DNA of 64,000 bases from Marinilongibacter aquaticus (GTDB lineage: Bacteria; Bacteroidota; Bacteroidia; Cytophagales; Spirosomataceae). Below are positions 46,879 to 48,563 of this stretch, piece after piece. The stretch is taken from the NCBI RefSeq assembly GCF_020149935.1, contig NZ_CP083757.1, positions 3,559,501 to 3,623,500 of the forward strand, written 5' to 3'. The position numbers and the translations under genes were made by a program. Below the pieces are notes generated by a model. That model saw only the letters and a program-made list of their open reading frames with translations, searched no databases and was not told the DNA's origin. Within the stretch, counting starts at the first letter, position 1, and every line of letters starts with the position of its first letter.

Positions 46879-48563
46879 ATGGAACAATTCGTTGTATCAG
46901 CTCGCAAGTACCGTCCCGCCACCTTCGATTCTGTGGTAGGACAAGGGCACATCACCACTACTCTGAAAAATGCCATCAAGACAGGGCATTTGGCTCAAGC
47001 GTTTTTGTTTTGTGGTCCAAGAGGGGTAGGTAAAACCACCTGTGCTCGTATTTTGGCCAAAACCATAAATTGCCAGCAGGTGACAGAGGATACTGAACCT
47101 TGCAACGAATGTACAAATTGCAAGAATTTCGGTTTGAATGCCTCTTTCAATATTCATGAATTGGATGCAGCTTCAAACAATTCGGTCGAAGATATCCGTA
47201 ACTTGATCGATCAGGTGCGATTTCCACCACAGGACGGTAAGTTTAAAGTGTACATCATCGATGAGGTGCACATGCTGTCTTCGGCTGCATTCAACGCCTT
47301 CTTGAAAACCTTGGAAGAGCCTCCTTCCTATGCCATATTCATTTTGGCGACCACGGAGAAGCATAAGATACTGCCTACAATCTTGAGTAGATGCCAAGTT
47401 TTTGATTTCAACCGTATCCAGATTAAGGATATGGCGGGGCATTTGCAAAACATTGCCGAAAAGGAAGGCATAGAGGCTGAACCCGAAGCCTTGGAGTTGA
47501 TCGCTCAAAAGGCAGACGGTGGGCTACGGGATGCCTTGAGTATGTTTGACCTGAATGTGACATTTTCGACGGACAAAAAGCTGGTTTATACCGAGGTTCT
47601 CGAGAATTTGCATGTATTGGATTATGATTATTATTTCAAACTGACCGAAGCACTGTATTCCGCAGACTTGTCGGAAGCCTTGCTCTTGTTCAATGAGATT
47701 TTGAACAAAGGTTTCGATGGACATCAGTTTGTGACAGGCTTGAACGAGCACTTCAGAAATTTATTGGTCAGTAAAGACAGCCGTACAGTCGACTTGATGG
47801 AAGTGCCCGAATCTGTGAAGCAGAAATACATTGAACAGAGTAAAAAAGTATCTACATCTTATTTGCTCTCGGCTTTGAGCGTCGGGAATGCCATTGATCT
47901 GCATTATAAAGCCGCCAAAAATCAAAGGTTGCATGTGGAAATTGGGCTGATGAAAATGGCCAGTATTTCTAAGGTCTTGGATTTGAACAACATTCAAGAA
48001 GAGGGGGAGGAGAAAAAAAAAAGCCTGAGCCAAACGGTATAAAATCAGCACCGGAGCAAAGCAGCCAATCTCGACCGCTGAGGAAAAAGCCTAAAATTTC
48101 ACGTTTAAAATCTACAGTCGATTTGGAAATCGAGCCTGCAGCACGCGAAGCTGTTGGGCAAACGACGGCACAGCCTTCGGAAAGTTTACAGGTACAGGAG
48201 AAAGATGAAATTGAATTTGGCGAAGCCCAAGTCTCGATGGCCTTGAAAGCCTGTGGAAAGATTTTCAAGAAGCAAACCGAACAGCAAATTTTAAAGAGTG
48301 CTTTTGTGCTCGAAAATAAACGGGTAACTCTGCAATTGGTAAACCAGACGCTTCTGGATTTTTACCAAGAAATGAAACAGGACATTCTCGATTTTCTGAG
48401 AAAAGAAATAGGTTCTTCACAGCTTCAAATTGAAGCAATTTTGGTGGCCGCGAAATCTGAAGCAAAGCCGAGAACAGAGCAGGAAAAATTCACAGCTATG
48501 GTAGAGAAAAATCCAGCCCTCAAATTGCTCAAAGACGAGCTGGGACTGGATTTGATATACTAA
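46879..48563 (+). CDS. dnaX: DNA polymerase III gamma/tau subunit, two frames joined at an A10 run
   Basis: From ATG 46879 the first frame encodes 387 residues and stops at 48042. It holds the AAA+ clamp-loader domains: Walker A GPRGVGKT (46-53), zinc cysteines Cys65, Cys75, Cys78, Cys81, and DEVH (128-131). Just before the stop is a run of ten A (48013-48022) after a purine-rich GAGGGGGAGGAG. In the -1 frame the sequence reads KKKKPEPNGIKSAP and stays open to 48563, ending LKLLKDELGLDLIY, a plausible tau C-terminus. A slip of one base at the A run would give about 561 residues. So a short (gamma-like) and a long (tau-like) product are likely, as in E. coli and Thermus dnaX; a sequencing error in the A run is the alternative. 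Confidence 0.9.
48001..48023 (+). promoter_or_regulatory. dnaX: Slippery A10 run and SD-like enhancer in dnaX
   Basis: GAGGGGGAGGAG at 48001-48012 is directly followed by A10 (48013-48022) and G. It resembles the E. coli dnaX arrangement, in which an AGGGAG element lies upstream of A AAA AAG. The zero frame ends at TAA 48040-48042; the -1 frame is open to 48563. Slippage could be translational or transcriptional. Confidence 0.65.

Follow-up and report, generated by a model that had tools for sequence, protein, structure and literature searches.

In Escherichia coli, a single dnaX gene gives rise to both tau and gamma, which are related by a -1 frameshift at an A-rich site. The slippery sequence A_AAA_AAG is accompanied there by a Shine-Dalgarno (SD) element and a stem-loop, and the shifted frame makes gamma (PMC3711429, PMC5009743). 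In Thermus thermophilus, the two products are separated by RNA polymerase slippage on an A9 run, and both other frames meet a stop close by; tau comes from the zero frame and gamma from slippage (Larsen et al. 2000, as described in PMC1088944 and PMC5009743). A new dnaX type was reported by Antonov et al. 2013 using GeneTack (PMC3711429). It consists of two ORFs in a -1 relation, such that recoding is needed for tau, and was represented by 17 genes of 12 genera, of which 12 had poly-A and nine had A10; transcriptional realignment was proposed. A 2014 paper refers to this type (PMC4066793). Slippage is likewise required for the longer product of mxiE in Shigella flexneri, an unrelated gene in which the run is of U (PMC1088944). 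Two further papers had no bearing on the dnaX site: PMC3017870 concerns a Blochmannia frameshift further downstream and PMC3971599 offers a table entry.

Thus, the inverted type and even the idea of its reversal are known. Beyond a remark in PMC5009743, an incomplete literature search of partly accessible sources found no report of dnaX polarity switching within a family. Nor did this search find a within-family record of reversals with both signal types.

The dnaX locus described here lies in a 64,000-nt stretch of Marinilongibacter aquaticus DNA (contig NZ_CP083757.1; hereafter, the window), from a 4.64-Mb genome in one contig. The original prediction, made from the sequence of the window, held that dnaX is read in two frames around an A10 run and that slippage is needed to make the long form. 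The extent of the zero frame, the exact position of the run and the -1 frame open through it were all recovered as predicted (Table 1). The run has a G on either flank. The zero frame through it reads GAG AAA AAA AAA AGC CTG AGC CAA ACG GTA TAA, and the -1 frame continues after the run as AAG CCT GAG and stays open until its own stop. The computed masses are 43.4 kDa for the 387-aa product and 63.0 kDa for a 561-aa product with four Lys residues at the junction.

Table 1. Features of the dnaX locus, numbered from the first nucleotide of the window
Feature	Position	Strand	Remarks
Zero frame of dnaX, coding for a gamma-type product with AAA+ ATPase, lid and domain III	46879-48042	+	387 aa; ATG at 46879
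Zero-frame TAA (gamma stop)	48040-48042	+	
Putative slippage run, A10	48013-48022	+	zero-frame codons GAG AAA AAA AAA AGC
Purine-rich SD-like stretch, GGGGGAGGAG	48003-48012	+	not conserved in the genus
TGA closing the third (+1) frame, one codon past the run	48026-48028	+	same pattern in relatives
tau-specific part in the -1 frame (linker and C-terminal domain)	48023-48563	+	stop at 48561-48563
tau C-terminal domain	48207-48560	+	single copy found in the genome

The layout is inverted relative to E. coli, as had been proposed, since the zero frame of the window is the short one and in E. coli it is the shifted frame that makes gamma. It differs similarly from that of T. thermophilus, having A10 instead of A9 and gamma instead of tau in the zero frame. 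The features of the inverted type, namely a zero-frame stop shortly past the run, tau encoded in -1 and poly-A at the junction, are all shared by the window, and no difference in the gene itself was found relative to the accessible description of that type; the present data add the occurrence of either polarity, and of a second type of signal, in a single family. A search of both strands of the 4.64-Mb genome matched the A10 pattern six times, and its occurrence in dnaX is more than chance. Of the five other places, one lies shortly upstream of a groES-like ORF, two fall within ORFs of 264 and 127 aa, a fourth within a 57-aa ORF and the fifth outside any ORF. A tRNA scan of the window found none.

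Both parts of the gene were matched to the same protein model. The zero-frame part aligned with positions 1-382 of the full-length gamma/tau model NF011531 of NCBIfam (E 6e-219) and with TIGR02397 (E 2.9e-129), both over the cut-off, as were PF13177, PF22608 and PF12169. The -1 part aligned with positions 448-613 of 614 of NF011531 (E 1.7e-14), the final quarter of that model, although as a fragment it scores below the model cut-off by itself. The tau C-terminal domain that had been suspected in the -1 frame was further confirmed by a profile of 58 sequences, which matched it with an E value of 1.1e-33 and matched nothing else in the genome at E<=10. A Pfam search of the tau part gave no match, and a sequence search of solved structures returned viral nucleoproteins at best (E 0.68). 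The fold predicted for the C-terminal domain (mean pLDDT 79.8, pTM 0.57) gave weak matches, none at E<=0.001. The best was a chain of the SirA-DnaA domain I complex (0.010). The others included DciA (0.071), 5fku_E from the E. coli polymerase complex (0.086), tau domain V of E. coli (2aya, 0.37) and unrelated proteins such as an FKBP and RbfA. Resemblance of the predicted fold to DnaA domain I, to DciA and to tau domain V of E. coli is weak.

Homopolymers are error-prone, and in L004, a close relative whose N part is 86% identical, dnaX is in one frame with an A10. The frameshift might accordingly be a sequencing error or a recent mutation of the A run, in a gene that is really one frame or is broken. 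This we find hardly conceivable, since a short zero frame, an A9 or A10 run and tau in the -1 frame were present in 3/3 genomes of the genus, the two others being an isolate and a MAG. The dnaX stretches of these congeners are those of Jiulongibacter sediminis (L091, the same as L003) and of a Cytophagales MAG (L092, the same as L002), which assigns the window to Jiulongibacter (Spirosomaceae, Cytophagales). Another 40 of 80 named loci, mostly of Algoriphagus and its relatives, share the poly-A interruption at the same place, with tau in -1. Thus, the run and frame relation anticipated for related genomes was seen in both congeners and further afield; an uninterrupted ORF was found in L004, but with the A10 retained.

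The codons after the interruption also argue against this explanation. Over the last 100 codons of the -1 part, the three pairs of genus sequences showed 84, 48 and 182 differences at positions 1, 2 and 3, respectively. Mean pN/pS of the -1 tau part was 0.24 in the genus, as compared to 0.23 (g22), 0.17 (g36) and 0.30 (seven Algoriphagus loci) in other inverted groups and 0.15 and 0.18 in two single-frame control genera; these ratios are rough because pS is near saturation. Read in the -1 frame, the tau part shows purifying selection, and this together with the shared layout in the genus led us to reject a sequencing error at the window.

To place the site in a wider context, we collected dnaX from the family, in which 145/150 genomes gave a match, at 147 places. 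Ninety loci were examined, which took in every short frame apart from three partial matches (two from G011 and one from G140) and a selection of the long ones; shares within the family are therefore not unbiased, the long-frame loci having been a choice. With the 80 named loci this made 170, of which 158 were distinct, mostly from Cytophagales. An A run of at least 8 was present at the site in 136/158 distinct loci (A10 in 125, A9 in 8 and A11 in 3). Of these, 80 encode the tau domain in frame 0, 53 in -1 and one in +1; two had no assigned frame. Among the 22 loci without a run, 21 had a site of ribosomal type and one, L065, had neither. In contrast, the conserved N parts of these genes, 161,193 nt in total, held only seven A7 and one A8. 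Long A runs were commoner in the tau part (84,503 nt; 46 A7, four A8 and one A10) than in the N part. As an illustration, because the loci share ancestry and were selected for having the run, the share of AAA among Lys codons in the N part (64%) would give about 44/136 loci with AAA throughout. All three phases of the run were found among the loci. A homopolymer of at least 8 kept in relatives whatever its phase is what programmed transcriptional realignment calls for, and this is what was observed.

It is very probable, judging from these comparisons, that this dnaX is functional and that RNA polymerase slippage on A10 separates its two products. Unslipped A10 mRNA would be translated in the zero frame to yield gamma of 387 aa. 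Transcripts lengthened by one A (A11) or shortened by two (A8) would bring the tau frame into register and yield 561 or 560 aa, respectively, and A9 or A12 transcripts would be read in the third frame, which stops one codon on, to yield another gamma-like product. The original prediction was undecided between transcriptional slippage and ribosomal shifting; the comparative data favor the former.

Further evidence comes from the frames in which tau is not encoded. A ribosomal -1 shift visits two frames and RNA polymerase slippage visits three, so under the latter both non-tau frames should end early. We counted a stop within 12 codons as early and used as a control the same frame started 20-90 codons downstream. 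Where tau is in frame 0, early stops were found in 72/80 loci for tau+1 (control 0.48) and in 77/80 for tau-1 (0.42). Where tau is in -1, both frames stopped early in 53/53 loci (controls 0.54 and 0.54). A sample of the class behaved similarly, with 12/12 and 12/12 for tau+1 and tau-1 when tau is in 0 (controls 0.60 and 0.63), and 22/22 and 21/22 when tau is in -1 (controls 0.52 and 0.66). These locus counts overstate independence because the loci are related. Counted by genus and polarity in the family, the third frame ended early in 24.2/25 groups, with 11.3 expected, and 0/100,000 simulations exceeded 21. The exception was Spirosoma (g5), in which 1/6 loci had the early third-frame stop and 5/6 lacked it. 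The sequence, its conservation, selection on the tau part and the early stops in both non-tau frames are observations, and from the whole we infer that slippage occurs in transcription, with a rate that is itself inferred, and that both products are used.

An alternative is that tau is made from unslipped mRNA by a ribosomal -1 frameshift at A_AAA_AAA, aided by the SD-like stretch, with gamma made in-frame. In favor of this, A_AAA_AAA does occur in the zero frame of the window with the SD-like stretch just upstream, in 21 loci of relatives the dnaX site is of ribosomal type and is preceded at 12-17 nt by an SD-like element, and in some bacteria tau seems to arise by ribosomal frameshifting, according to a review (PMC5009743). 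The purine-rich stretch noted by the original prediction is indeed present directly upstream of the run, but the corresponding positions of the two congeners do not resemble an SD, and it is probably incidental. Ribosomal shifting also leaves unexplained a run longer than 7, its varying phase and the third-frame stops. The TGA that closes the third frame at the window is expected under RNA polymerase slippage and unneeded for a ribosomal -1 shift.

Two elements known from E. coli were missing at the window, where there is neither an in-frame A_AAA_AAG nor a predicted downstream hairpin that might serve as a stem-loop stimulator (z 0.57; 141/200 shuffles fold at least as well). The heptamer A_AAA_AAG was in the zero frame of 16/78 inverted and 20/92 normal poly-A loci, and was absent there in 134/170. 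Its general absence, the varying phase and the early stops in both frames are more the marks of RNA polymerase slippage. Sequences meeting a strict definition of SD-like were found upstream of 16/170 poly-A sites, in contrast to 20/20 ribosomal-type sites. Control positions gave 1.6% by this definition and 2.8% by a loose one, which 29/170 poly-A sites satisfied, and this enrichment suggests that ribosomes may contribute in some. Mean downstream hairpin z of the 78 inverted poly-A loci was -0.35, with eight at z < -2 as compared to two in the downstream control. Ribosomal-type loci averaged -1.43 (8 inverted) and -1.02 (12 normal), with controls of -0.67 and -0.28, a hint only of more stable structure. 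A ribosomal share of the frameshifting may exist, but we regard ribosomal shifting as an unlikely source of tau at the window.

Ribosomal-type loci provided a comparison for the third-frame test. The 12 of normal polarity showed no excess of early third-frame stops (5/12, control 0.51), as a ribosomal mechanism predicts, and their -1 frame ended within 5 codons. However, the eight inverted ones also stopped early in the third frame (8/8, control 0.52), so this test is not a clean separator.

The tau C-terminal domain could also be produced separately, by reinitiation after the gamma stop. A TTG-started ORF at 48123-48563 would permit this, and some ATG precedes the C-terminal domain in the tau frame of 53/86 inverted loci. 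However, only 2/86 of these loci had a tau-frame ATG between -30 and +60 nt relative to the gamma stop, and 19/86 had any ATG, GTG or TTG there. Reinitiation would also leave the conserved A run unexplained. With starts near the gamma stop so scarce, separate translation of the domain was disfavored and appears very improbable.

The 21 ribosomal-type loci (L031-L038, L042, L043, L051-L053, L064, L071-L076 and L088) all belong to the family of the window. Their sites combine G_GGA_AAG or A_AAA_AAG with an SD-like element and were found in both polarities; GGA AAG or GGA AAA AAG was in phase in 21/21, with GGAGG, GAGGG or AGGAG 12-17 nt upstream. The anti-SD is reportedly occluded in the phylum Bacteroidota, and the prfB case described in PMC8710568 parallels these SD-like sites. 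One inverted ribosomal-type locus, L034, has a strong predicted hairpin 60 nt past the slippery codons (z -5.3); in the other loci of g36, hairpin z lay between -1.9 and +0.8.

On a quick tree of the 158 N parts, polarity changed 12 times, or nine times without four doubtful rows (L039, L040, L162 and L041). When branches with support below 80, 90 and 95 were collapsed, the changes numbered at least 11, 9 and 9, respectively, or at least 8, 6 and 6 without the doubtful rows. Polarity cases confined to a single genome could be sequencing errors. Some differences go with run length, such as those between two A9 and eight A10 loci of g22, and between the A9 of the two congeners and the A10 of L004. 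Others go with the flanks at constant A10, as in Dyadobacter versus the Algoriphagus group. The signal itself switched type, between poly-A and ribosomal, at least once; the quick tree suggested that the ribosomal-type site arose twice independently, but this was not upheld, since a tree holding the 21 rows together was not rejected (AU p 0.623).

These patterns make it reasonably likely that dnaX of Bacteroidia carries an old slippage site whose polarity is near-neutral and flips often, and that in part of the Spirosomaceae the poly-A was replaced by an SD-assisted ribosomal -1 site. Polarity would be near-neutral because slipping on A10 fills all three frames, and small indels in or beside the run would then flip it repeatedly. 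If this is true, each of the two signals occurs in either polarity within a single family, and all four combinations serve the same protein pair. Natural pairs of opposite polarity, such as those within g22, would allow a test of whether selection maintains the tau:gamma ratio and not the template frame. Because dnaX supplies the clamp loader of the replicase, tau that depends on slippage would stake chromosome replication on the error rate of decoding.

In a survey of the class, 88/90 genomes gave a match. The frame was short or partial in 28/88, namely the window, two cut or partial matches (G172 and G162) and 25 loci that were fetched. Of those fetched, 24/25 had A9-A11 with the tau domain in -1 (22) or +1 (2). 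The remaining locus, L200, from a 0.49-Mb genome, had no A run of at least 8 and no recognized tau domain, and perhaps makes gamma only. Among 60 long-frame loci, 15 were fetched, of which 12 had A9-A10 with tau in frame 0 and three had no run. The poly-A site is therefore widespread in the class and, from its presence in 136/158 distinct loci, old. About 25/86 assessable class genomes are inverted, if the 45 unfetched long frames are normal. This carries a warning for annotation, as dnaX in these genomes looks truncated by open-frame length; in the 24 fetched besides the window, the tau domain is in another frame.

Two further configurations were also noted. Four loci with a long-frame dnaX (L065, L209, L214 and L215) had no A run of at least 8 at the site; they possibly make tau only, or reach gamma by another route. 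In a third configuration, seen in L162, L180 and L185, a poly-A of 10 or 11 is followed by the tau domain in the +1 frame.
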